From positions 2,034,001 through 2,098,000 of the forward strand of contig NC_046360.1 in NCBI RefSeq assembly GCF_004027225.2: a stretch of 64,000 nt of DNA. The letters are read 5' to 3'. Below are positions 45,101 through 62,669 of this stretch, in pieces. Within the stretch, counting starts at the first letter, position 1. Each line of letters begins with the position of its first letter. The notes below the pieces were generated by a model. It worked only from the letters and a program-made list of their open reading frames with translations. It was not told where the DNA came from and searched no databases. This stretch comes from Strigops habroptila. Taxonomy: Eukaryota; Chordata; Aves; Psittaciformes; Psittacidae. A program made the translations under genes and the position numbers.

Positions 45101-47588
45101 CGCCTACAAAACACAATGAGGTTACCAGAAGGTGGGGACCGTCACACACATAGATTTAGATTCAACTCTCAGTTTGCAGTTTGGATCTGTTCTGTGCGTT
45201 GCTTTTTTTCCTTTCAGCTTCCCAAAACTACTTCCCATTTCTCCCCATCGCACCCTATGGCACAAACCAGCCCTCTCTGCCCCTCTCCCTCCCTGATCAC
45301 AGCAGAGAGCGCAGCCCAAGCACAACACGCACCGCCAGGTACGCCCGGTCCCTCTCGATCAGGTCAGCGAGACGGTTCAGCAGCTTCCCCCGGTGAGAAG
45401 CATCCATCCTCCTCCAGGGCGAGCCCAGCTGGAAAGCTGCCTTGGCTGCCTTAACGGCCTTGTCCACATCTGCCTGCAGGGGAGGGAAGGCAAGAGGGTG
45501 AGAAAGGCACAGCCAGCCCCCACTCACTCTTTCAAAACACCACTGAAGCTCTCCCTGGTCTCCAGAAGAAAACAGCCCCTGGCACATGTGGCCGCTCACA
45601 CAGGCCTTGTTGGGGCAAGAACTTGCAGCCTTGACTTGCCCCACCGCAAGACACCTGCATCCCCTGGGCCACTCACCCCATAAGCATCAACCTGAACAGT
45701 CGCTGTTATTTCAGCTAAGCACAGTGCAAATCCCACCAAGTTATCTCCCCCATGTCATCTGCTGGGTTAATATTGGCATCCCAGAACAAGGCAAAGCTCC
45801 ACAAGTGTGCTTCTCACACTCGCTCAGGTTTTGATTGCACCAGTAGTGTCTAAAGGAGTTTTGTCCTTGATTAGACACCTCTAATCCATCATTTTGTCCT
45901 GTCAGGGCATTAACTGGTTCCTCGTTGGTTCTCTGTCCTGGCTTGCTGCAATGGTCTTGCCAGGACAAGCCAGTCTACCAGGGACAAGCAAATAACAAAG
46001 TTTCCCTCCCTAACCCCTCCCATGGGGAACACAAACAAGCTTCCAGACTATAGAAAGAACCCAGAATTGCTGGGAAACACCAGCTCAGCTCTGCCACAGC
46101 CTCCTGGGAGGGCCTTCCATAAGGAATGATTACATGACTCTATTCCCCACCACCTCTTTTTCTGGTTTCCTAGGGCTGGGGACAGTCTCCCTCTCCATGT
46201 GTACAGCAGGAAGGGGCTGTGCAGGGGACTCTTGACCTTCTGTCTCCTCTGCTACCATGACTCTGGGTCATGCTGCCAGCACAGCACCCACAGGACCACA
46301 GAGCGTCTGCCTTCATCCCTGCCTGCCCCACAACCTCCAACCGTGACTGTGCCCAGACCTCCCAACTCATCTATTCCTCTCCATCCTTCCCAGTCCCAGC
46401 ATGGCAATGGTGAGAAGCAAAGCCAGAGGGTTTCTGCTGAAAGCAACAGTTGAGGAAGAGCACAAGCAGCTCTTGACATGGTGTTTGTAGAGGTCAGACG
46501 CTGCAGAGCTGTGTTGGTGTCTTCCCCTGCAATCCCCGTGTACCTGCTCACACTGAAAACAAACAGATCCCACCAAGAGAACCTTACCTTATCGCCCTCT
46601 GCAACCTGGCAGATGACTTCTCCGGTTGCTGGGTTGATCGAAGGGAAGGTTTTCTTACTGACTGCATCATGCCACTCGTTATTGATGAAAATCTGCAACA
46701 AAACAAGCAAAGCCTCAGCACCAGACCCGGGGGAAACCACTGAGAGCATCTGACAGCACCTTACCAGGCTGTTTAATTAAGAGACTGAACTTGTGCGGGC
46801 TCCAGATCTGCACCAATATGAAGGAGATATTTTAGCCTAAAACTACACAACAAAAGACACACCCTCAACTTCATAACAAGAATTCACCTCTCAGCAAACA
46901 GCACTTCAACGGGAAGCAGCTCCCGTCTCAGTAGGTCCCTGCAAGCCCGGGATGCCCGGCTGGAGCTGCGCAGGGACAGCGGGAGGCTCCGGGGCAGATC
47001 TGCTCCTCCAGGTCCATGCTGACAGTGTCAGCACCGTGGTGCTCACCGAGAACTTCCCGAGCGCTGGGCCAAGAGCCAACAGCCCGGTCATGGCCGCTGG
47101 GAGCGAAGGGAGCAGCGGGGCCGGTGGGGAACGGAGCGTTCACCCCGCACGGGCCCGGCTCTGCCCCCAGCACCGAGCCGCGCACCTTCCCATGTCCCCT
47201 CGTGTAGTTTTCTCCGCAGAGAACCGGTGGTAGCGATTTGCGCTGACGGGACGCACCCCCCGCGCCCCACACCCGCTGCCGCGCCCAGGCTTGCGCTTCC
47301 CAAAAGGATTTCCCGGAATTCCCGGGTTTGGGCCCAACCGCCCGCCCGCCGCACCGTGAACCGGGGTGTCCCCAGCCCGGACCCCGACCGCGCATCCCCT
47401 CGGGCCGCGGCTCCGGGCCCAGCTCGCCCCTGGGGAAGCCCCCGGCGCGGCCCTACCTTGTTACAGGCGATGTCGGGGCGCGGGTTGGGCGCCGGGATGG
47501 GGGAAGCGGCGGCGGCGGCCGAGAAGGGCGCACGGAGCGCGGCCGGGCCGCGGCAGAGCCGGGACACACACACCGCTGCCCGCAACAT
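39139..47588 (-). CDS. ALDH2: Mitochondrial aldehyde dehydrogenase 2
   Basis: NAD-dependent oxidation of acetaldehyde and lipid-derived aldehydes in the mitochondrial matrix, as a tetramer. Thirteen coding exons: 47457-47588, 46588-46692, 45333-45473, 45024-45103, 44380-44491, 43398-43526, 43020-43133, 42538-42640, 41697-41881, 41177-41341, 40719-40876, 39873-39987, 39139-39171. They total 1572 bases (523 aa plus stop), slightly longer than human because exon 1 is longer. Exon 1 gives an Arg/Ala-rich transit peptide. Key residues are present: GQIIPWNFPLLM, FTGSTE of the NAD fold, the general base Glu in LELGGK, the catalytic Cys in [11 protein letters not shown], and [12 protein letters not shown]. 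The Glu that is Lys in the human ALDH2*2 allele is kept in YVEVKN. The C terminus ends in PQKNS. All joints keep phase, so the gene looks fully functional. Confidence 0.98.
39540..39686 (-). mobile_element. CR1 LINE fragment in the last ALDH2 intron
   Basis: Reverse CR1 3' end between ALDH2 exons 12 and 13. It starts ATAGAATGGTTTGGGTTGAA and contains CTTCCACTAGAGCAGGTTGC and CTGGCCTTGAACACTGCCAG. It is 5'-truncated. Confidence 0.9.
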
Positions 47589-47750
47589 GCTGCGCTGCGC
47601 TGCCCGCTGCACCGGCGGCGGGGCCCGCTCCTCCGGGACCGCCCCGTTCCACCGGGACCGCCCCGCTCCACAGGGACCGCCCAGCTGGGCTCGGAACGGC
47701 GGGGTCCTCCGGGCTTCATCCGGCACGGCCGGGCTGGGTTCCGTCCCCAT
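46930..47750. promoter_or_regulatory. CpG island and promoter of ALDH2
   Basis: GC- and CpG-dense block covering ALDH2 exon 1 and the start of intron 1. There is no TATA box at a convincing distance from the ATG at 47588, in keeping with a housekeeping promoter. The long open frames on the plus strand here are compositional artefacts. Confidence 0.75.
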
Positions 47751-47756
47751 CAGCGT

Positions 47757-47911
47757 GGCTCGGTTCGGATGGAATGGGCTCGGTTTGGCTCAGCTGGGCC
47801 CCGTTCAGATCGGCTTGGCATGGTTCGGCTGGGCACAGCTCAGGTCAGCCCCATTCGGGTCGGTTCAGCCCGGCTCAGTTCAGATCACAGCGGCACAGCT
47901 CGGTTTGGTGC
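47757..47911. repeat. Degenerate minisatellite of CGGTTCGG/GGCTCAG units
   Basis: Irregular tandem array upstream of ALDH2 in which variants of GGCTCGGTTCGG, CGGTTTGGCTCAG and CGTTCAGATCGG recur roughly every 10-20 bases for about 155 bases. Units are imperfect, so copy number is only estimated. Confidence 0.65.
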
Positions 47912-49216
47912 TCCGGGGATGCCTCATTGGTGTCCAGCACAGGCTGCCCCTGTCCCTGGTTAGTTCTGTGGGGAAGGTGTTGCAGTGAAGTAACTGGTCA
48001 GGGATCCCTTGTTATCTCAGTGTGCACATGGGAATCTCATAAAGAAACCTCTGTGTGTAGGGGAAGTGGAACAAAACCAGCAGAAAGCAGAGCCTCTCAC
48101 AACAGGAACATCTGCGGGTGCATGCAAATGAGAGGCTTTGTAAAATTGCTCCCAACAACAGCTAAAGGCCTTTTCTGCACAAGAAGCCCTGCGCAAGTTC
48201 AGCGTGTCCAAGTGCAGATGCACATGCAGGGAAGAGAGACGTTCTCAAGTTATCGTCACTGTCACTAAGGAAGCCACAGACCAAACCCGTGCAGTTTTTA
48301 ACCTCCAAAATAACCCTGTGTCTGACAGCACCTCTGGCTCCCTTAGTGAGGGGCTGGTGAAGGGTAACTGGGGGTGGATAGCTCTTAAAGGGGCCAGAAA
48401 AAATGTGGAATATGTCAATTCAGAAGTAGTTTAATGCACTGTGCAGGAAGGCACAGCTAGCACAGTGCCAGTGCCTGGGCATTTCGCTCCGGAGGGGAAT
48501 ACCAGCCCCGTTTTACAGGAAGGAGCCATGAGGCCTGGAGAAGCAAAGCAACTGCCCAAGGTTATCCAGCAGGACTCGGATTAGGCTGCGTTTCCTCCAT
48601 CAGCAGAAAGAAATCCTCTTGAGTTAGACCTCTCATCCGCCCATATCCCCTGCAGGGTGACTGGGTCCCCTTTGTCGCCCCAGACAGTGGGTCCTGGGCA
48701 GCTCTTTAAGAGGTAGCCCTCAGGAGAAATACCTGTTCCAACATGTTCTCCCTTTTGTTACAGGCCCGCACGTGTTAAACCACTTTCAGGTGCCAGAAAG
48801 ACCTGTTTTACCCGTGGAGACCTGCCTGTGTGCACCGTGTGTGCCAGAGGGACCGGGTCAGGCGGCGTATCCACAGCGCGCATCTCAGCACTGAGCTCCA
48901 GCTGAGCCTTGCCCAGGGCTGAGCCCCATACACCATCACCCTGCGTGTCTTCTGCTGATACCCGGATTCAACAGGTGACAAGGAGCATTAGCCCTGTGTT
49001 AATGCTTTTGCTCCTCTTGAGCAGGACCCTTCCCTTCCCTGGGGCTCAGCAGGCAAACCCAGCAGCACTAAAAACACATGTAGTGGAGGAAACACCTTCA
49101 CAGCAGACCCAGTGCTCAGCCCTGCAATAGCTGGCTGGGATTGAGCCTGCCTGAGAGGGTGGGAGGTGCCAAGGCCAGGTGCCTGCTAGGAAATCATCCC
49201 AACTGTGGACAGGGTA

Positions 49217-49252
49217 GATCCAGGCTCGGATCCAGGCTCAGATCCAGGCTCC
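49217..49252. repeat. Three 12-base tandem repeats
   Basis: GATCCAGGCTCG, GATCCAGGCTCA and GATCCAGGCTCC in direct succession, differing only in the last base. Confidence 0.95.
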
Positions 49253-49420
49253 CTCCCCCTTCTGCAGCAGAGCCAAGTGCCTGAAATTCTACTGAGGCAG
49301 AATTTCACCCTGGAGCCTGGGAGAAACTGGAGTTCAGGTTACAAGGATTGCCTACAGCCCCGTGGTCCTGGTGCTGAGCAGCCAGCGCGGCTCCTCCGCA
49401 GCACCCCTTGTGCCCCCCTG

Positions 49421-49458
49421 GGAGCAGGGATGTGCTCTGGGAGCAGGGATGTGCTCTG
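49421..49458. repeat. Exact 19-base tandem duplication
   Basis: GGAGCAGGGATGTGCTCTG appears twice without a gap, suggesting recent replication slippage. Confidence 0.95.
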
Positions 49459-52400
49459 GGGACCCTGGGCGGATGGAGGTGGCTGTGTGAAAGTGGGCTC
49501 TGAGGCTGTGCCCGCGCTGGAGAAACTGGAGAAGAATTCAGAGTGTTTCCATCACTTTAATATTGCATTAATATTGTGCCCATCACTTTAATATTAATAA
49601 TAGATTATACATAGCCCAGGAAATGCCACAATTGTTCCCACAGTTCTCCCCTAGCTGTTGGCCTCTGTGGAGCACTGAAAGCCCTCACTGGTCCAGTCTG
49701 CATCCTCTGTGGTCCCCAAAGGAACCCAGAGAGATCCTCTGCAGTCATGGCCCCATGGAGTACTCCCAGGTCCTCCCAGCTCCAGAGTCCTCAAGGACCT
49801 GATTCAGTTCCCTCCATCCCCAAGGTCTCTTGTAGTGTCTGCAGGTTGATGGAGGTGTGCTGGAGGAGGAGAGACACCCTACTCCATTCTTTTTATTCCC
49901 AACACCAAGTCTTGCACCCCTAGCCTGGTCATTCCTGCCCTGCAAGCCTCATGATCCAAGGATGGATTTTGCTGCCTACCTCCTGAGCCTGGAAATGAAG
50001 ATACAGATATGGGATAACAGCAAACACCACTGAATTCAGCAGCTCCCAGGCTGCTTTAGTCTCAGGTCCGAGGTGGTGGCTCAGCTCTGGTTTGCAGAGT
50101 GCTGTGAACCATGTGGGACCTTCAGCGAGACGTGGAGCTCAGGCCTGAGCAAAGCACCGGGCTGGGGGCTGCACTGCTGAGATGCTCTGCTCCAGAGACC
50201 TGTGTGAGAGCAAGATCAAAAGCCCACATGGGGCATGTGAGGGGCTGCAGGACCAGGGAAGGATGGCAGTAGATGTCCCAGCCCCTTCCAAATGCCCTGG
50301 GGAACACATTGCTGGGGAAACGGCCCCACAGGGCGTCCCACAAAAGACAGGACAAGTCACCCCTCACACTCAAGGGCCCCAGATTCATTCTTGGTGTGGA
50401 GCAGACCCAGAACAGACAGGGAGGTGTCCCTGTGCTGCTTTATTTGGGCCAGAGAAGGGTCAAATATTAGGTGCATGAGCCTGCCCACCTGGCTATGCTG
50501 ATCCATGGCCTGAAGAGTCATTGTCAGAGCCACTGCTTGGGTCCTGGTGCTCTGTGCCTGGTGGAAGAGGATGAGACATCACATCTTCCTACATCCCTCT
50601 ACCGTGGTGCTGCCCCTCTCCAACAGCCAGCCCCGGCTCCCTCCCAGGCTCAGTGCTGTGCCCAGTGCTTTGGCCAAACACGCTTATGCTCGCTCTGAAA
50701 GAGAAACTGAGCTTTCCTGCTCCTCTGGAGCGGATCTCCTGGAAAACTGTGGGGATGGGCGGCCTCCAGGACCAACAGGCAAAGTCTGCTGGCTCCTTGT
50801 GCGGGCTGGGGCAGGATTAGCCGAGATGCTGCCCTGTTCAATGGAGTGAATGTGCTGGGGTGAACCTCTGCCCTGCAGAGCCAGCTGGCATGAGGAGAGC
50901 TCACCCTTCCCCTTGGCCCTTGCCCAGCTGAGAGTCCCAGCCTGGGTCTATTTGGCTGTTTAACACTCACTGTGTTATCTTTCTGCTGCAGGTAGCAAGG
51001 CTCCTCCCCTGGCTTTCACAACAAGGACAAAGTGGGACAGCCGGGAAGGTGGCAGGGCCGAGGGGGCTCTGTGGCCCCCGGACAAGCCCAAGGCATGGAG
51101 CAGAGAGCACGGGAGTCCTGCTGCTTGGAGACTTGGGGGCTCTCTCCCAGCTCTGAAGGTGAGTGTTTCTAAGGAGGATGAGGAGATCTGCTCTTCTCAG
51201 CACTTCCAAACTCCCCAGAGCTGCTGCTTCCCCTCCCTGTCCACGTTCTCGGTGGATCAGCTGCTAAGCTCCCTGAAGTGCTGGGATTTGCTGGTTTCTG
51301 CCAGAGCGCAAGGAAATGCTTCCAAAGGGCTGAAACAACAGATGGGTTTTTTTTTTTCTGGCAGCTAAAAGGTGGTTAAGTAACTCACTAGAATTTGGTA
51401 ACGTCACTCAAATACACTAAGAGTATAATCTGGGTAGCAGCTCAAGGATAGGGAAGTTTGCTCTCATGACACACTGAGTGATTACTCATGGCACAGCTCC
51501 CAGCAAGTGTTTGCAACACCAGCCAGCCCAGAGCCACGAGCTCCTGAGCCACAGCCACCAGCACTGGGAAGTGGAAGCACAGAGAAACCAGAGCCTGGGC
51601 AGGGGACTCAGGGGTCCTGGTCCCTGTGTATTGACCTGCCTTGCACTGGCAGAGGGAGAGACACATGATGAAAACTCTCCAGTTCGAGAACTGATGCTAC
51701 TCCCATCTCTGCCACTGACCCACTGCATTGGCAAGTCCCTTTGGTAGCTGGTTTCTGCTTCCTCCCCACCATGCCAGGAATGACCCATGTCCCTCCATTT
51801 GAGGGTTCAGGGCTGCAGCAGCACCTGCTCTGCACAGGAGAGCCCAGGAGGGTAGCAGGGCCAAAGTCTAAGTGGTGTCCCAGAGCTGATCACCCTCAGC
51901 TTATCACCTGATGGGGTGATAGGTCGTGGGCAGGCAACTGTTTGCTGATGGGGATGTCTGCAGGGACAGCCCCTGCCATGGAGAGGAGCATAACAAAACA
52001 CAAAGGAGGAAATGAAGCTGTGGAGGTGCAAGCAGCAACCTGCTCTATCTCAGGGACCTTCTAAAGAAGCACTGGGAGGGACTCTTACAAAGAGAATTAA
52101 GTTAGCCTGTCCCACAGAGAGGCTTCCCCCTGACAGGGGAAGGGAATGAGCAAGTGATGGACTGGCAGATGTTGAAATGCCCAAGATCACAAGCTCTGGG
52201 GACGGATTCTTATCATCACTGATAGCAGGGCCTTGGCGGAACAGCACCAGCGATTGCAGCCGGGCTGGTTCCATCTGCTCACCTCAGAAGGGAGTGCCAG
52301 CTTCTGAAATTGCTGTTTCACAGAACATGAACTCTGTTACTCCAATGTAGCAGCAACAGGAACCCCACTCCCCTTTCTCCAGGCCACTGGACTCTATGAA

Positions 52401-52488
52401 TGCCACGTGCCTGATGTGATCAGGAAAGCAAGGACACTCAGAGGCATGCCACAATCCCCCACCCTCGCGCAGGTGCAGCAAAGCAACT

Positions 52489-55400
52489 TTAGGAAGGAAG
52501 ATGTCTCACCTTCAGTTCTAGAACAGGACGTGGAGTCCATCCAGGGAGGGAAATCAGAAAACCCCACTGGATGCCCATCATCTTTTCCAGCTTGCAATAA
52601 AGACTCTGGGCCATTCCCAAGAGGCTGGAGGTGGGAGTGATGAAGGGGGCTTTGGGCACAGGAGCTGCCCCAGGACATGACCAGGTACCATAGCTCCTGC
52701 TGAGGAAAGGCCCTCGCCTGGCCCAGGTGCTGTAACGTCGTGTGAGAAGCTGTGTGGTGGGGAGGCTGTCAAACACACGGAATCCTTCTTTGATGGCAAA
52801 ATCCCAAGCCAGGTCAGCCACAAACTCTACATCCTCCGGGCTGCTTTCACCTGGGGCTGGCTTCCCTGGGGATGAGAGCACAGGACACTTTTGTTTGGAA
52901 GAGCCCATGTTTTGTAGTCACATCCCAAACAGCACCATGTGCCCTTGTCTGGGCCAGCCCAGCAGGACTTGGGGCAACTCCTCACTAAGGAATATGAACA
53001 TAACATCTTGGTTTTCTCTGATAAAGGCTCCCAGGCCAGGCCTGATGTGTGCAGATAACCAGAGAGCTCACATCACCCCCCTGCTTCCGAGTGTCTCTGG
53101 TGCTTAGTTTGAAGGTCTGGGAGCTCCACCTGTGGGACACAGCTCCGAGCTCTGCTCAGTTCCCCCACGATAGAAAAGAGACCACACAGCAACCTCTGAC
53201 AGCACAGACAGCAGCAAACAGGCATCCAGCAAAAGCAGCTGCTGGGGAATGCCCTGTGTGTGCTCCCTTTGGCCCTTCCTTCTGTTTGCAGGACACAACA
53301 GCCAGCCTGAGAGGTTAGAGCAGCGCTGTGTGAGCTCTGTGCAGAACAGAGCTGCTGTGGAGCGTTCCTCACCTGCCACAGGGTGCTTGTAGAGTCCCTG
53401 CAGCGCTGCCGCCAGCCGGAAAGAGGCAAAAGCCATGTAGAAATTCCAGTTCTCCGGCCGCTCCACCCCCATGTGGCCACAGTACATCTGGGAATACTCC
53501 TCTGCTGTGGGGACTCCCAGGTGCCCCAAATCACACTTCCTCAAGCCTGGAAAGTGTGAAGAGGCAACAGTGAGCCAGCAGACGGTGAGGAGCTCAGAGG
53601 TTTCTAGGGATGGCATGAGGCTGGTGGCAGAGCCATGTGGAGCAGCAGACTCCTGCCCCATCCAACACCTCCACTGCTGCCCTGGTTCCATACATACAAT
53701 GGGTTTAGCACCAGCCCATGGAGGTGAAGTGCACATGGGGCAGTTTTGTGACTGGCAGATGTTCCTCCTAAACGCTGGAATAATTTTCCTCTGGGTTTAA
53801 CCTTATATTTTTAACAAGTGTATAACTTTGGGAACAAACCCCTTCTGGGCTGCCCTGGGTCACAGCTTTCCCACCCAGAAAAGCTCCCCAGCTTCACAGC
53901 TGAAGTGAGAGGGAAAAGAATCCAAACTGATCTCTAAATGCAGTCGTGTGAGCTGGGAAGCAGGGCCCTGACATGACCACAAACAAAGGTCCATGCCCAT
54001 GAACAGGGTGACAGCACCAACCAGGACAAATGGGTGGCAGATATGAAACAAACTGGGGATGGGGTGTCCATGGTACAGTGATTACTGGATGTGCAGAAAC
54101 ATGTTTCCACCCTGGAGGGATGGAGGGCTTTTTAGGGAAGGGAGAAAGGGCAGAGCAGGGAATATTGTACGAGACCCACTGCCCTTTCCAGCTGCAATGA
54201 ACCCAACTATCAGCTGAGCTCTCTGGGCAGGAGCTAATCTGTTTCCGAACTCTAGTTCCTCTCTGTGTGTCAGATGTGGCTTTGCCCCTCTCTGTACCTC
54301 TCAGTGCACTAAAGTGAGGTGGCAGGAAGTAGGCCATACAGTTATTCGCCAAATCAGAGATGGGATCTCCTAGAGTTGCAAGCTTCCAGCCAAGGACAGC
54401 AAGGACTTCTGGCCTGTCTGGATGAAAGACCAGGTTGTCCATCCTGTGTGAGAGGGAAAATGAGATCAGAAAAGTCTCAAGACAGGGAAAAAATATCCCA
54501 GTGCTCAGCAGCAGTGGGTGCTTTCAGTGCTCTTCACTCTCTTCAAAATTTGCTGAGTCCTTCAGGAGGCTGCACCAGTGAAACATTAATTTCTGCAGGC
54601 ACAGGTCAGGGAGGACGGAGATTACTCAATAGTGAACTCCCTGATTAATGATGAACTGAACTGAACTGTAAAGAATGAAACCAAGTTATTCAGAGCCTCA
54701 GATCATCAGCAGATGTTACAGGACAGGCCAGCCAAAAAGCGAAGCAGGCAAATCACTGTCCAAGGGGATCTCCTGGTCATTTCCAAGGCACACAATAACT
54801 CCAGGCCCTGCGCTGACATGTGCACGACGATGTGTAGCAAAGCCTTCACCAGTCTGAGCCCCAGGAGAGGGCAGCAGCCTACTGAGGAGGAAACAGAGAG
54901 GGCACCATCCTGCCGGGGTGCAGAGAGCTCAGACTGTGTGTGCTAACCTTTGTGGGATGGCCCAGAACTGGCACATGCCCACAGCAGCAGCCTCACAGCC
55001 CTGGCATCCAGGCGCTGACAACACAGAAGCAGCTCTCAGCATCCCTCACCTCTGTCCCCAGCCACCACCACGCTCTGCACGGCTTCACCTGTAACACTGG
55101 CAGGTTTTACCATGTACCCCACAGCACCTCACCAGCCACCAAAGCACCAAATACAATGAGCAAGATGCACCAAGAGTATTTCTGAGTATTGCACAAACTG
55201 CTGCTGAAACAGAAGAGTTGATCCTCCCGTGTTAGAGCAGTGTTTGCAGTGGTTGGGTGAAGAAACTGTAACACCAATGAGGCAGTAAGATTGGGGTCAG
55301 ACACCAGGAGTCCAAGATTTCAGTTCCTGCCCCCAGTTTCCCTGCTCTGGAATGGGTGCTGCTTTAAACTGCCATAGAGCAGTAGGAAGATGAACACTGG

Positions 55401-58400
55401 GGTAAATATGAGGTCCCTGGGTGCAAGGCAGCCCCAGGCAGAGCCCTGGGGTATGTTTCTCATGACACATGTGACAGGTTTGTGTCTCTTTAGATCTCAT
55501 TACCTGAAGGATGCTGAGCTTGACCCAGAGCCCAGCTTTTGGACTGCTCTGAAGCTGCTGTGCCAGCCCAACTCAGCACCTCTCTGGTGTTTATATATTG
55601 CTTTACACCCTCTCTGGTGCCTGGGATGTGCTCCAGGGCAGTGCTGGCAGCCAAGCAGTACCTGAAATCACCGTGCACAACTGTTGTCTTCTGAGACTCA
55701 GGGAAATGCAGAGGCAGCCACTTGATGAGTCTTTCCATGGCTGGGATAACATGAGTTTCTGTAGCTCGGTACTGCTTTGTCCAGGTCTCAACTTGCTGCT
55801 GAATGTAATTACCTGTAACAGAGGAATGAAGGCTCTGAGGGAAAGGGACTGGCACAAAGAGGCTTCAAAAGAGAGGCATAAAAAACGCATGAAGAAAAAG
55901 TCAAACAGCCAAACAGATCCAGCACCCTGAGACAAGCTCCAAGAGTGTAACTGTGAGCTCTGGGGGTCTCATACATTCTTAACTGGGCATTGGATTTGAT
56001 ATTCTGGTGGAAATCATCAGATCCTGGACAGAAACGTTAACTTCACCAACTCCGAGAAGCTGCGATAGCTCTGCAGAGACTGGAGGAGCTGAGGAAGTTT
56101 GCTCAGAGACGGCAGCAAAGAAGTTACTCCTGCACCCACACGTAGCTCTTGCTCATGGCAGGAAGCTCTGGGGACTACTGACAGGAAACACAGACCTGGA
56201 GGGTCTAAAGCAGCTCTCCCACCACGCCTGAGCATTCGGACACCCTGCTGCCCATCTGCACTCTCCCGGCTGCCCTCAAGTCTGGCTCAAGCCCTGTACC
56301 CAAGCTGATCCCTTGAAATGCTGATACACAGGGGAAGAAAACAGCGATAGAGGACACACAGGCTTCTCTCACCGTGCTCCCCGAGCTCCTCCAGCTTGGC
56401 TGCTCTGAGGTCTACGCTGTGGATCTTGGAGAGGACTTGGCTCATGGCAGCATAAATAGCTCTCCGCTGGCAGGGCTGCAGCGCAGGGAGGGAGACGTCG
56501 CTGTAGATGCGGCCGGCACGGTGCTCCATCAGGTAGAAAGGTGTGCCGAGGGTGCTGGGAGGCAAAGGGGAAGCCGTGGGGCTGAGGTGAATCCTGCTAC
56601 CTGCCAGCCCTCAGCCTCACCTGCAGCTGGAACAAGCCCCCTTCATGGCAAGGTGAAGAGCAGCCTCTGGAGCACTCACACCTGGCCATGGCCTGGGCTC
56701 GGGCTGCGCTGGGCTCTGGAGCTGGGCTGTCAGGCTGCACACAGACACCATGAGTGATGGGCACACATTTCTCTGCAGTGCAGAGGCTTTAGCACTGCAG
56801 GCAGCAGGGATGTGAGTGTGGCTGTGCTGATTGCAGGCTGCACGAGGCGTCCTGGCTGCAGGCTTGCTGCTGTCATGGCTGGAGATCTTGGGGCAAGCCT
56901 GAGGGCTGGCAGGCAGAAATACCACCTCTTTATTGGAACCCTGAGTGTACTGAGCCAGTGGGAAGCCCTAAATATTGCTTCAGAGCTGCCTTTCAAAGAC
57001 AGTGCTTTGATTAACTGCTAAAATAGGACACACCTGACCCAAGCCAAATAAAAGTGTTGCTGTTCTTTGAACTTCTAGAGGCTCCTCCAGCCTGAGACCG
57101 GGCAAACATTAATGAGACCAGTGCACTTTGCGAGGGCTGGCTCCTTTTTCTCCTCTCTCCTCATCACTGGGGGAATCTGGTTGAAGTTTTCAAGCACAGA
57201 GTGAAAGGTGAGGGACAAGATTACCTTCTGTCCTCACAGAGAGCAAGTACAGTGGGAACAGGAACACCGGCTTCAGCAAGGGCCTTCAGTAACCTGCCAG
57301 GGCGAGTCAGAGAGCTGTGTCAGCACAGAAAGGCATTAGGGAATCAATACTAGAGCTGCAGTGTTGCCAGGCAGACACACAGGATTGGAGTCCTGTGCTC
57401 GCTTTTAAATACACTAAAATAACATGGTTGGAGGTAGGCAAAAGAAGCAAACCAATATCTACATGTGGCCCAGAGCCCCCAGACCTATCCAGCATGCTCT
57501 GGAAAACCAAGGAGAGGTCACAACTGCTCCCCCACAAGTGTCCTGCTGCTGAGATCACAGACTGGGATACAGAGCTGTGTGAAACACAGGGGAGGCAGGT
57601 GGGTGAGCTGAGTGTCTGATGTGGAACAGGCTGGAATAGAGCCTTGTCCCTAGGATGGGGTGGTTTGGGATCCACAGGAGTCCTTCCCGCTCAGCTGGCA
57701 TGAGGAATAGAGCTGCCTTCTCACCTGTATTCCCTTCTGACAGCAGGGCCAGAGGGATGTGGGCTGTCAGGGGGCTCCTTCTTTAGCACTAGCAAGTGAT
57801 CTCCAAACCTGACAGCATAGGTCCGGGTGGAGTGTCCGTGGCCAAACTGCCGTAACACTAATGGGCCTGCAGAGAGAGAGCAGGGGTCAGCAGACAGAGC
57901 CATGCCTGGGGCTGTTCCTCACCACTTCCCCAGGTTTTACATCTCCTTCCTGCAATCAGGAACCTGCACCTTGCTCCGTGTCCCAAATCCCTGGGGAGAA
58001 TGGCACCAGCTCATAGATGCCTCACAGGCCAGGAATATTCCTGGCATCAATTTGGTAACTTGGGCTAAACCCCAAATGAGGAAATCCTAAACTGTTGTTT
58101 CCCATTTCTGGGATACAGTGACAGATCACTGAGCAGCTGTGCTGTTTGCTTGGAGATTAGGAGCCTTCCACTGATATGATTTTTCAATCCATCTGTTGCA
58201 TGAAGGGAAGAGCCAATGGCTCCAGAGTATGTGAGCTTTGAGACTAAAGAGCAAGAAGCACTGTGATACCTGTGGTGTGGTCACCGAGAACATTCTCAAG
58301 GTACTTTTGCAGCTTGTCTTTTGGGATTTCCATGCTTGGTCTCACTGCACGAGTATATGGAACAAACCCTTGTAAAGGGAATCCCAGACATGCTTCCAGC

Positions 58401-61400
58401 TCTTTGAATGCTGCTTCTGGATCATCGACCTGAAAGAAGGAGGGAGAGAGTAACATCAGGTGATAGTAGAAGATAAAATTGCCTGGGAAAGAAAGAGCTC
58501 TGCACACTTGCAGTGTGTTTATTTATGAGTTCCATGGCTCTGATCCACTAAGACACACAAGGATTCATGGGTCATTCCCTGCCAACACGGAGTGCTGTTG
58601 CCAATACTCGCTGAGCCTCCACCTTGGTCTCTGTCCTGGAGACATACCGGTTATGGTGGTACAGGCACTGTGGGCTTGGGCTGGGTTAAGAGCTGGAATT
58701 CCCTGTGTGCAGTCCAGGGGAGCAGAGTACACTCTTCCCATCAGTTCCATGCTTGTCCTTCCCCCAGTGGGAAGTGAAAACCCCCCATGCTCACCCTCTC
58801 CAAACCTGGGGGTTAAGCAGTCAGTCCCCAGCTGACAGATCCATGAAGCCTCAGAGCTTCTAGAAATCCATTAAATATGTCTTATTTTCTCACATCTAGT
58901 TGCCTTAACCATATGGATAGGGCTGTTTCTCTAATAGGGAACTGAGATCCATAAAGGAGAAGTGACTTCTCCAAGGTTACACTGTCGATAGGGTTTAGAG
59001 CTGTGAATGAAACAGTGCAGCCTGCCAGGAATCCTCCCCTTTAACCCCACCACATCCTGCAGGAATAAGTACAGGCTGAAACAAAAGGCTTGGCAACACG
59101 AGTCTGCCACTGCCAGTTGAAAATCCTGAGCCAGTCAAGTCACACACAGCGTCTGGGCTTAAAAACCATAACCAAAGCCCACCCTGGTTGCATTGCTTTG
59201 TACCTTCACTGTTTTAATGCCAAGCTGGGCTGCTGCTTTTAGGTTCTGGCTGCTGTTGTCGAGGAAGATGGATTCCTGGGGCTGAACATCCAAGCGCTCC
59301 AAGCACAGCTTGTAAATCCGAGGGTCTGCCTTGCCCATCCCTTCCCGATAGGATTCAACCATCTACAGCAACAACAAATGGATTATGCATGAGCCTGTGT
59401 GACCACAATCATCTGCAGGGTTGGAAATGGAGGATGGGAGGGTGGGAAAGGGACTGACAGTCTAATTAGCATGTGAAATAAAGGACATGGAGGGCTGAGA
59501 GAGCTGCATAGGGCATAATTTAAGTGACAGCATGGGTGCCAAGTCCTTGGCTGTGGCTCTTCCAGCTCAAATCAGCTAAACAGGATGAGCCAGTCCTCAG
59601 ATGGAAGATACCCAGTGAGATACCCAAAGATATCCAAAGATATCTGGATATCCCAGACCATGCTGAACCAATTGCTCAATGCTGTCCAGGAAAGCCTTGG
59701 ATTGCACCACCTTCCAAATCATCTGGAGAAGTGATGTCCTGATCGACCACACAGCAGCAGAGACATTGACCATAATCACCTGCTCAAATTGGGACTAAAG
59801 TATTGAGTCAGTCTCTGACTACTCACACTGCCCTCCCAACCATAACAAATTCAAGCAGTATTTCACTCTGGCAGTGACAGACACTCCAGGAATAGAAATG
59901 AATCTATTAGGTAGATATAAAAGCCACTGCTAATGGAAATCCACATTCAATTAATTTTTTTCCCCCACTAATTACTGTGCAGTGCTGTTGCCTGCTGTTC
60001 TAGAAGAGCCACACCGCATGAGTGATGACACCAGATAGGTGATGGTTATTAAAGGGCTTTGAAACAGTCTGGGATGAAAAGAAGTACCACGGAGCATCAC
60101 AACAGAGCATCACTCTGCTACGAGAACTTCACAGGCATCAGTGTCACTGCTGAAATGCACAGAAAGCTGAGTCCATAATGATGCAATATTGACAAGGTGA
60201 CTCTTCTTTGCATATTTTGTTGTCTTAAAGCTAGAAACCAAACTCATGTCATGAATAAACTCCTGAAATTCAGAGATGTGAGTTGGGGCACACAAAAAAA
60301 GCCAATTTTCTGTCATGCAGAGCTGAGTCCTCATAGCTGCCTGTCAAAGTGAAGCCCCTTGAACCAGCCTCAAGGCTCACAGCTAATCTGCTTCATCTCT
60401 GCAGCAGGAAGCGTGCTGGGAGAGGGTCTCTGCCTGCTCGGCAGCTCAGACAGATTGGCATGTTGGAGTTGTGGGATTCCAAATTCTTTGGGATGAAACA
60501 AGCTTTAAAAGGACTAAATATAAAGCAGGCAGGTGCACTGGGGAATGACATTTATTGCTTGTATAGTGTTCCAGCTCCTAAGCCCTTTATCAACATCGCT
60601 CCCTACGCCTGTTACACAGATCCTTGTGGTTGTGTGGGCATTTTGCAATGAATTTTCACATACACAAGTACCTGCCCCTCGCTCAGACCCTCCTCAAGGC
60701 CCAGTCACTGCAATGAATTATGCCAGGAAACATCCTCACAGCCAGTTACATTTACATCTGCTAACACATGCTGCTGGCTGCCCTTCAGTTGGTACCTGCA
60801 TGTGAAGAATTCCAGTTGCTGCTTCCTATAGACCTACAGAAATACATTTCAGGATCCATCCAGCCTTACCACATCAAAGTGCTTTTGGTCTAGGGGCAGA
60901 AAGCTCTTCCTATTCAGCAGGCAGAAGTTGTCCATCAGAAGAGCTGTCTTGAGACCTTCTGCACGGATACACTGTACTGCTTCTGCCATTATGGGGAGCT
61001 GTTTTATCATCTCCTTTCTGATTAAGTCCGAGAGCAAAGAGTCCACTGGAACACGGACATTTGCCTAAGAAACCAGGGAAACACCAAGAATGATAATTAA
61101 CCACAGATTGTTTTTAAGCAGGGAGGAAAATCAGAGTGCTTGGGTAGGTAGATTGCCTGATCATCTTATCTTGGTGCCCTACTTCCTTTGGCAGCAGAAG
61201 GCAGGCAGTGAAGCTCCCAGCTAAATTGCTTAGACCAAATAAACCAGTGTTCTCACATTACTCATTCTACAGAAGCAGCAGCAGAGATCAAGGGCTGATT
61301 TGGGGAAAGAGAAATGCACCAGGACTGTGCCTGCTGTGGAATCAAGGCAGGTTATAGCGAAATCCTGCTTTCCATTCAGCAGGCAGGAAAGGAATCTGCA

Positions 61401-62669
61401 TTTTAGACTGAGCTCTTTCAAAAAGACTTAACTCAAAAGAGGATTTCTAGAGCTGTGATGAAGGGGCTTCTACTGATCTTAAGAACCATGGTCTCCATCC
61501 ACCGAGAGTGTCCACGTATGAACTAACAATAAAAGCCTTTCAGCTGGTTTCTGACTTTGACTTCTCATCTCCACTGATTCTAGAGGTGTTGTGAAATAAA
61601 AACATTATGAAATATGCAGGAAGAGGCTGATGGAAGTCAAGGCAAATTCAGCTGACCATCCTGCCTGGGTACCAGAGTGATGATGGCAGTGAAAAGACTG
61701 CCCTGATCAGACAGCAATGCTTCCTAGATGCTAAATCCAGACCCTTCCATCAAAAGATTGCTTTTAAAACCTCCTCTTTCCTCCCTTCTGGATCCCGTTT
61801 CCCTGCCATCAGGAAGCACAAAGAGAGGAGGGGGATTTTGGCTTACAATCTCAAAGCACTGCCGTCCCAATTCCTGCAAAAACTCCACAGTTGTCAGCTC
61901 TCCTCTTGTGTACTTCAGAGAGAGACTATTTTCCCCTCCAGAGAGTACAGCTTGCTGGATGGTGCCGGCTGGAATACAATTCCGGGCCTCCCAGTCTACA
62001 CGGAGAACAGGAAGAAAGCCAGGAAAGAGCATGTATGGCATCATCAGAACTGGGAAATCAGCTTGAAATCCCTCTGAGGTCTGATACATTGACCAGCACT
62101 CATGAGAACTGACGTGCTGGACTGGTGTAATTTACCCATACACAGAGAGAAGGTTTGGACATTCCCCCAGCTGAAGCACCTCACCTCTGTTTTCGGTGTG
62201 GTACCTTGGGGTGAAAGCATGGAGTTCTTAAAGCGTGCTGAAGGGCTGTACCAACACTGGGTGCTATCAGTGTTGCTACAGGACAATTTCATCACCAGAT
62301 GGCTTCAGGCGCTGACCTGGAGCTGTCAACACTGTTGCCGGTCGCTGTTTGTTCTAGTACTTCTGATGACACAACAGGTACCACCATCACCAAGGCAAGT
62401 TCTCAAGCATCTTACCAGAACCAGCGGCAACTGACGGGGTCACCTGAAATCTACTTTCCCTCCATGCCTGGAAACAACAGGAGCAAATGAGAATACACAC
62501 CCGCGGCCGTCTTGTAAGGGGATGGGAGGAGCACTCCGCCGGCGTCGAAGATCACGGCTCTATAATGGCACCATCCAGATCGGGTCCAACAGGCTGACCC
62601 CTGGGGGTGCTGCTGCATCCCAGCACGCAGCAGGTAAGGGGCAGCGCGGGCGATGCTCCACAGGTACAT
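52489..62669 (-). CDS. ACAD10: ACAD10-like HAD/kinase-fold fusion, dehydrogenase half not found
   Basis: Orthologue of ACAD10, in mammals a three-part protein: HAD-like, aminoglycoside-phosphotransferase-like kinase, acyl-CoA dehydrogenase. Twelve exons: 62501-62669, 61847-61995, 60870-61064, 59204-59362, 58270-58429, 57725-57866, 57225-57293, 56373-56554, 55662-55812, 54298-54443, 53373-53546, 52489-52865; 690 codons in phase. The HAD part shows [26 protein letters not shown] and ESIFLDN. The kinase part shows [16 protein letters not shown], the catalytic VVHGDFRMDN, and [14 protein letters not shown] where mammals have LDWE, so the metal-binding Asp is missing. The last exon continues past [14 protein letters not shown] into a short stretch resembling the start of the dehydrogenase part ([20 protein letters not shown]), then either stops at TAA (52489) or splices at a GTGAGA donor (exon low end 52510) to exons I cannot find. 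The human protein is about 1059 aa. The start ATG is inferred. Confidence 0.85.

Follow-up and report, generated by a model that had tools for sequence, protein, structure and literature searches.

ACAD10 in the Strigops habroptila genome lacks its dehydrogenase half and encodes a predicted HAD-pseudokinase

We analysed a 64,000-nucleotide stretch of the Strigops habroptila genome (contig NC_046360.1, positions 2,034,001 to 2,098,000; called the window below, with positions counted from its first letter) and found that ACAD10 is without its dehydrogenase half in this genome. Mammalian ACAD10 is a mitochondrial protein composed of a HAD domain, a kinase and an acyl-coenzyme A (CoA) dehydrogenase (ACAD) domain. 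In contrast, no ACAD domain was detected in the window gene, and its kinase is missing the metal-binding Asp, a CoA-contacting Arg and the GQSNP loop as well. We think it fairly likely that the gene, which sits between BRAP and ALDH2 as expected, is the genuine ACAD10, that all ACAD-domain exons have been lost from it, and that the remnant encodes a mitochondrial HAD-pseudokinase, with ACAD11 as the remaining enzyme.

ACAD10 was rebuilt on the minus strand as 12 exons (62669-52510), with GT-AG boundaries at 11/11 introns and every phase agreeing. Its exons encode 684 residues; if reading continues past the last donor, VRHLPS follows before a stop, for a total of 690. A reading made earlier from the letters of the window (the sequence-only reading) had described HAD and kinase halves over twelve in-phase exons and a product of about 690 residues, and both descriptions held. 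Profile searches of the product identified an APH-type kinase (PF01636, 155.7 bits, Pfam) and a HAD domain (PF00702, 54.5 bits, Pfam; TIGR02247, 187.6 bits and above its cut-off, NCBIfam), and no ACAD family was listed for it by Pfam or NCBIfam. As expected for an ACAD10 orthologue, the HAD domain carries one Asp of the DxD motif (FDAGG) and the gene lies between BRAP and ALDH2. The former is represented by a BRAP-like start on the plus strand near 63.5 kb, upstream of ACAD10, which we take to be BRAP, and the downstream gene is taken to be ALDH2. The order BRAP-ACAD10-ALDH2 is given for human in passages of PMC12898128. The features are as follows.

62501..62669, minus strand: ACAD10 exon 1; carries the start codon, an N-terminus resembling a presequence, and HAD motif I FDAGG (D42, equal to human D48)
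61847..61995, minus strand: ACAD10 exon 2; HAD
60870..61064, minus strand: ACAD10 exon 3; HAD, with MDNF for human SNNF
59204..59362, minus strand: ACAD10 exon 4; HAD, with FLDN for human FLDD
58270..58429, minus strand: ACAD10 exon 5; end of HAD and start of kinase
57725..57866, minus strand: ACAD10 exon 6; kinase N-lobe, with GHSTRT for GQSNPT
57225..57293, minus strand: ACAD10 exon 7; kinase
56373..56554, minus strand: ACAD10 exon 8; kinase
55662..55812, minus strand: ACAD10 exon 9; kinase, with Gln at residue 414 for the CoA-contacting Arg and the HGDFR catalytic loop retained
54298..54443, minus strand: ACAD10 exon 10; kinase, in which the metal-binding DWE reads GWK (codon of Gly477 at 54391-54389)
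53373..53546, minus strand: ACAD10 exon 11; kinase C-lobe
52510..52865, minus strand: ACAD10 exon 12; kinase end, linker with both cleavage-site equivalents, degenerate ACAD-domain start, donor CTGAAG/gtgaga
47600..52509, minus strand: gap between ACAD10 and ALDH2, without a detected dehydrogenase exon; AATAAA at 50444 and 49897
47457..47588, minus strand: coding part of ALDH2 exon 1; ATG at 47588, phase 0 at its end
46588..46692, minus strand: ALDH2 exon 2; phase 0 at its start (46692)

The missing half was searched for with the dehydrogenase domains of human ACAD10 (11/11 residue numbers match print) and mouse ACAD11 (the residues of PDB 8v3v). A tblastn search of the whole window at very loose settings (E value up to 50) gave nothing above noise for the dehydrogenase, the best E value being 0.58, and the same search recovered the HAD and kinase exons as a positive control. 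A profile hidden Markov model (HMM) built from the two domain sequences and run at full sensitivity reached a maximum of 1.3 bits in the 4.9 kb gap before ALDH2, versus a best score of 4.1 among 20 base shuffles. Applied to ACAD11 of this genome, it found ten pieces that together covered the whole profile at 24.0-82.7 bits. Dehydrogenase relics in the gap were thus rejected, because the loose tblastn and the two-sequence HMM yielded noise alone, and the statement of the sequence-only reading that no DNA for dehydrogenase motifs could be found before ALDH2 was borne out.

That reading had also named tblastn of the dehydrogenase domains against the window and the whole genome as a check. When the 1.15 Gb assembly (89 contigs) was searched with both dehydrogenase queries, a clear match was obtained only at C1:143.62-143.64 Mb, which is ACAD11. 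Places off ACAD11 scored no more than 20.4 bits, and some ACAD11 pieces were equally weak. As a control, the human ACAD10 kinase query recovered the window ACAD10 exons at up to 73.7 bits and ACAD11 at up to 49.6 bits genome-wide. The PF00441 profile matched 12 places in the genome, ACAD11 (C1:143638657) among them. A relocated dehydrogenase half was unsupported by the genome-wide dehydrogenase searches. Since the C-terminal ACAD domain expected of an ACAD10 orthologue was found neither in the gap nor clearly anywhere beyond ACAD11, we regard the window gene as a truncated ACAD10 orthologue and not as an ACAD enzyme.

ACAD11 of this genome lies at C1:143.61-143.64 Mb. It resembles the window ACAD10 in its paralogous kinase and linker (as does the ACAD11 of PDB 8v3u/8v3v), and the two genes share an exon boundary where the ACAD domain begins. 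It differs in possessing ACAD exons that span the whole profile, together with intact DWE, HCMR and catalytic Asp, and no HAD domain is reported for it. ACAD11 is apparently the only complete enzyme left of the pair and would carry the remaining breakdown of 4-hydroxy fatty acids. Mammalian ACAD11 is reported to be peroxisomal; the ACAD11 frame of this genome ends in KKLTAKI (at about C1:143641.98 kb), not in a classical SKL-type peroxisome signal.

The kinase of the window ACAD10 was aligned with those of human ACAD10, mouse ACAD11, the ACAD11 fragment of the same genome and 80 relatives from bacteria (the best-scoring of at least 505 confirmed). These bacterial LvaA-type kinases are likewise APH-type, and in their best segments they share 46-55% identity with the kinase of human ACAD10. 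Unlike the window ACAD10, they retain the metal-binding Asp of DWE (80/80 of that best 80), as do human ACAD10 and both ACAD11 sequences. In the window ACAD10 this Asp is replaced by Gly and the Glu of the same motif by Lys (GWK). The nucleotide loop GQSNPT has become GHSTRT, although its Q, N and P are each present in 80/80 bacteria. The Arg equivalent to mouse ACAD11 R176, also found in 80/80 bacteria, has become Gln; passages of PMC12440821 model R176 as a CoA contact. Residue numbers in that paper equal the PDB chain numbers plus 1, and R86 was not used because by the same offset it lands on a Phe.

Columns were classed as near-invariant when 60 or more bacterial letters were present and agreement reached 95% or more. 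By this rule we counted departures in 16/66 columns for the window ACAD10, as compared with 2/67 for human ACAD10 (Fisher p 0.0003), 7/67 for mouse ACAD11 (p 0.04) and 3/55 for the ACAD11 fragment of the same genome (p 0.005). However, over the kinase as a whole ACAD10 was not significantly less identical to its mammalian counterpart (209/344) than ACAD11 was (178/281; p 0.56). Ordinary overall identity combined with departures at near-invariant columns indicates damage at functional sites rather than general damage. With regard to the features of an active 4-hydroxyacyl-CoA kinase, two of three (the metal-binding Asp and the CoA-contacting Arg) are absent, and the Asp and Asn of the catalytic HGDxxxxN are present. 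Judged from these residues, the ACAD10 kinase should not phosphorylate 4-hydroxyacyl-CoA. With its metal-binding Asp gone, along with further near-invariant residues for ligands, what remains of ACAD10 has probably ceased to be an enzyme. The sequence-only reading had proposed a change of function through the absence of the dehydrogenase; the absence stands, but the extent of the change was understated, for near-invariant ligand residues of the kinase have gone too.

The N-terminus ahead of the HAD Asp contains arginines and, as read from the sequence, zero acidic residues, which fits a mitochondrial presequence. The HAD domain itself differs from the human one in motifs such as SNNF, here MDNF (60870-61064), and FLDD, here FLDN (59204-59362). 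It retains the single remaining Asp of DxD, the residue that restrains the kinase in ACAD10: the HAD domain is reported to restrain the kinase of the same protein, and mutation of this Asp raised kinase output (passages of PMC11342911).

Conservation along the protein is uneven. The window protein aligns with human ACAD10 without a gap across 209 HAD residues and with 2 gap columns across the kinase, and HAD and kinase together are identical at 331/553 positions (about 60%; 2 gap columns). According to passages of PMC11342911, mammalian ACAD10 undergoes cleavage in cells on the C-terminal side of S617 and just ahead of S637, beside R616/R634, at sites that fit the mitochondrial processing peptidase, and the N-terminal fragment arises by this cleavage, likely through that peptidase. 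Equivalents of both sites (LTRR/Y and SRSY/G) are encoded in exon 12. Up to the second site the linker is identical at 22/35 positions (4 gap columns); past it, identity falls to 14/59 (24%; 9 gap columns; p 1.3e-7 for the drop), and the ACAD-domain portion of the tail alone gives 11/36 (p 0.0008). The step at the cleavage site indicates that the region matching the mature N-terminal fragment is conserved while the orphan tail drifts. The window protein is thus like mammalian ACAD10 in its HAD-kinase order, its BRAP and ALDH2 neighbours, its identity over HAD and kinase and its cleavage-type linker sites (passages of PMC11342911 and PMC12440821). Its resemblance to the mature N-terminal fragment described in the former extends to HAD and kinase of the same extent ending at the linker arginines; it differs in that the other half is absent from the gene itself and the kinase is predicted to be dead.

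Whether such a gene is maintained or merely decaying has to be weighed. On the rival view, ACAD10 would be a decaying gene that has drifted without function since it lost its dehydrogenase half and its kinase active site, and it would be intact merely for want of time since the loss. This would account for the lost active-site residues of the kinase and for altered HAD motifs, FLDD to FLDN being one. In a neutral simulation, the probability of finding no stop and an intact ATG and splice sites was 0.285 without indels at a distance of 0.01 substitutions per site (0.034 with a frameshift rate that we assumed), so that intactness is not improbable at or below that distance. At a distance of 0.05 substitutions per site it had dropped to 0.0025, and greater distances gave lower values still. 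Decay is at odds with the intact frame, with 12/12 exons and all splice sites preserved, with an alignment almost free of gaps in HAD and kinase, and with a fall in conservation that is sharp only past the old cleavage site, and we regard it as unlikely. An open frame with preserved splice sites, together with the near gap-free alignment and the conservation step, instead suggests that a mature HAD-pseudokinase may be kept under constraint, presumably in a non-catalytic role.

The 3' end of the coding region was considered next to its paralogue. Exon 12 ends at CTGAAG/gtgaga, and the last 10 residues before this donor (letters not shown) were likened by the sequence-only reading to mammalian WSPSPLIEDLK. 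The donor agrees with the consensus at 8/9 positions, which makes it the joint best of the twelve ACAD10 donors, and it is in phase 0. ACAD11 of the same genome is spliced at the equivalent place and phase, where LLERLK is encoded up to CTGAAG/gtatga and the next exon opens at cag/GAAATG (EMAKAEG). The coincidence of the two donors indicates that the homologous ACAD10 donor survives, though no exon was found behind it. That reading was right that the final exon enters the linker and a degenerate ACAD-domain start; the part said to diverge and stop is instead the start of the old intron, because exon 12 ends at the donor. Most simply, the transcript would read through this donor and add VRHLPS and the stop. 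Past exon 12, AATAAA signals occur at distances of 2.1 and 2.6 kb (50444 and 49897).

The orphan donor of exon 12 (52510) and the acceptor of ALDH2 exon 2 (46692) are both in phase 0 on the minus strand. Since the phases agree, a read-through splice would result in an in-frame HAD-pseudokinase-ALDH2 fusion, which could be made in some transcripts. The strength of the donor and the placing of both genes on one strand, with about 4.9 kb between exon 12 and the ALDH2 ATG (47588), are in keeping with such a fusion. However, phase agreement is expected by chance in 1/3 of cases, ALDH2 retains its own exon 1, and the AATAAA signals stand between the genes. In addition, the ALDH2 exons fused to ACAD10 in an old zebra finch annotation were an assembly error, explained as a false duplication in passages of PMC9516828. 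A fusion of this kind is accordingly very improbable. Least probable of all is that dehydrogenase exons exist and were dropped from the assembly, for in the assembled sequence the 64-kb window contains no N, the gap used as a genome query matched itself only (in a search that passes over simple repeats and very frequent words), the 89 contigs gave no clear match to the ACAD10 dehydrogenase off ACAD11, and a dropped segment would not explain the lost active-site residues of the kinase.

Several points weigh against a truncated ACAD10 kept as a constrained pseudokinase. The catalytic HGDFRMDN loop, with the Asp of HGD and the Asn, and the alpha-C Glu are retained, which speaks against a dead kinase. 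In mammals, part of the tail beyond the cleavage site is a disordered linker, and such a stretch may change quickly in any case. ACAD11, taken as a control for the conservation step, shows no significant drop (p 0.29), being identical to mouse at 178/281 positions in the kinase (six tblastn pieces, some overlapping by 1-6 residues, with one 16-residue piece excluded) and at 31/56 at the ACAD start (two overlapping pieces), but this control is small, uses mouse as its reference and is built from partly overlapping pieces. The intactness of the gene could also reflect recent losses. Constraint was judged from the genomic sequence of this one genome. Finally, the intact donor of exon 12 leaves room for a further downstream exon.

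Outside the coding exons, short tandem repeats were noted at 47624-47686, 49216-49251 and 49418-49460, just upstream of ALDH2 and within the gap. No Rfam family matched the window at gathering scores. Elsewhere in the assembly, three cytochrome b-like fragments on contigs C2 and C7, 45-63% identical to the query and interrupted by stops in the standard code, are probably nuclear copies of mitochondrial DNA, although TGA stops alone would suit the mitochondrial code too.

Returning to the reading of ACAD10 as a truncated HAD-pseudokinase gene, we propose the following course. Exons for the ACAD domain, which processes 4-phosphoacyl-CoA, would have been lost, and the twelve that remain would encode a HAD and kinase protein resembling the N-terminal product that mammals make by mitochondrial cutting. 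A kinase without its partner ACAD domain would yield a dead-end phospho-intermediate; when the ACAD domain was inactive in 3T3L1 cells, the phosphorylated intermediate rose fourfold (passages of PMC11342911). Loss of the kinase after loss of the ACAD domain would avoid this dead-end product, and switching off of the orphan kinase is therefore a plausible second step. The remnant would then have been retained in a non-catalytic role.

Among the open-access papers searched, none was found, by title or by the start of the abstract, to treat a truncation of ACAD10 in birds. Genes named ACAD10 are recorded in zebra finch, anole and alligator, without domain detail in the passages concerned (PMC9516828, PMC4232536, PMC6565670). 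Passages of PMC12071005 report changes in goose liver and muscle for LOC106049048, a gene labelled 'ACAD11-like' that could be either ACAD11 or a truncated ACAD10. ACAD10 and ACAD11 admit 4-hydroxy fatty acids to beta-oxidation (passages of PMC11342911).

Tentatively, and with somewhat less confidence than in the truncation itself, we suggest that this lineage, and perhaps many birds, turned ACAD10 from a two-step enzyme of 4-hydroxy fatty acids into a constrained mitochondrial HAD-pseudokinase: the loss would have removed the half that mammals separate by proteolysis, the orphan kinase would have been switched off, and the non-catalytic remnant would have been kept as a regulator or binding protein. 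Annotation that relies on the gene name would wrongly assign dehydrogenase activity to the window ACAD10. If true, a HAD-pseudokinase occurring naturally with no ACAD half would part the regulatory portion of ACAD10 from both of its activities, and short 4-hydroxy acids would then be cleared through ACAD11 alone, or poorly in mitochondria.

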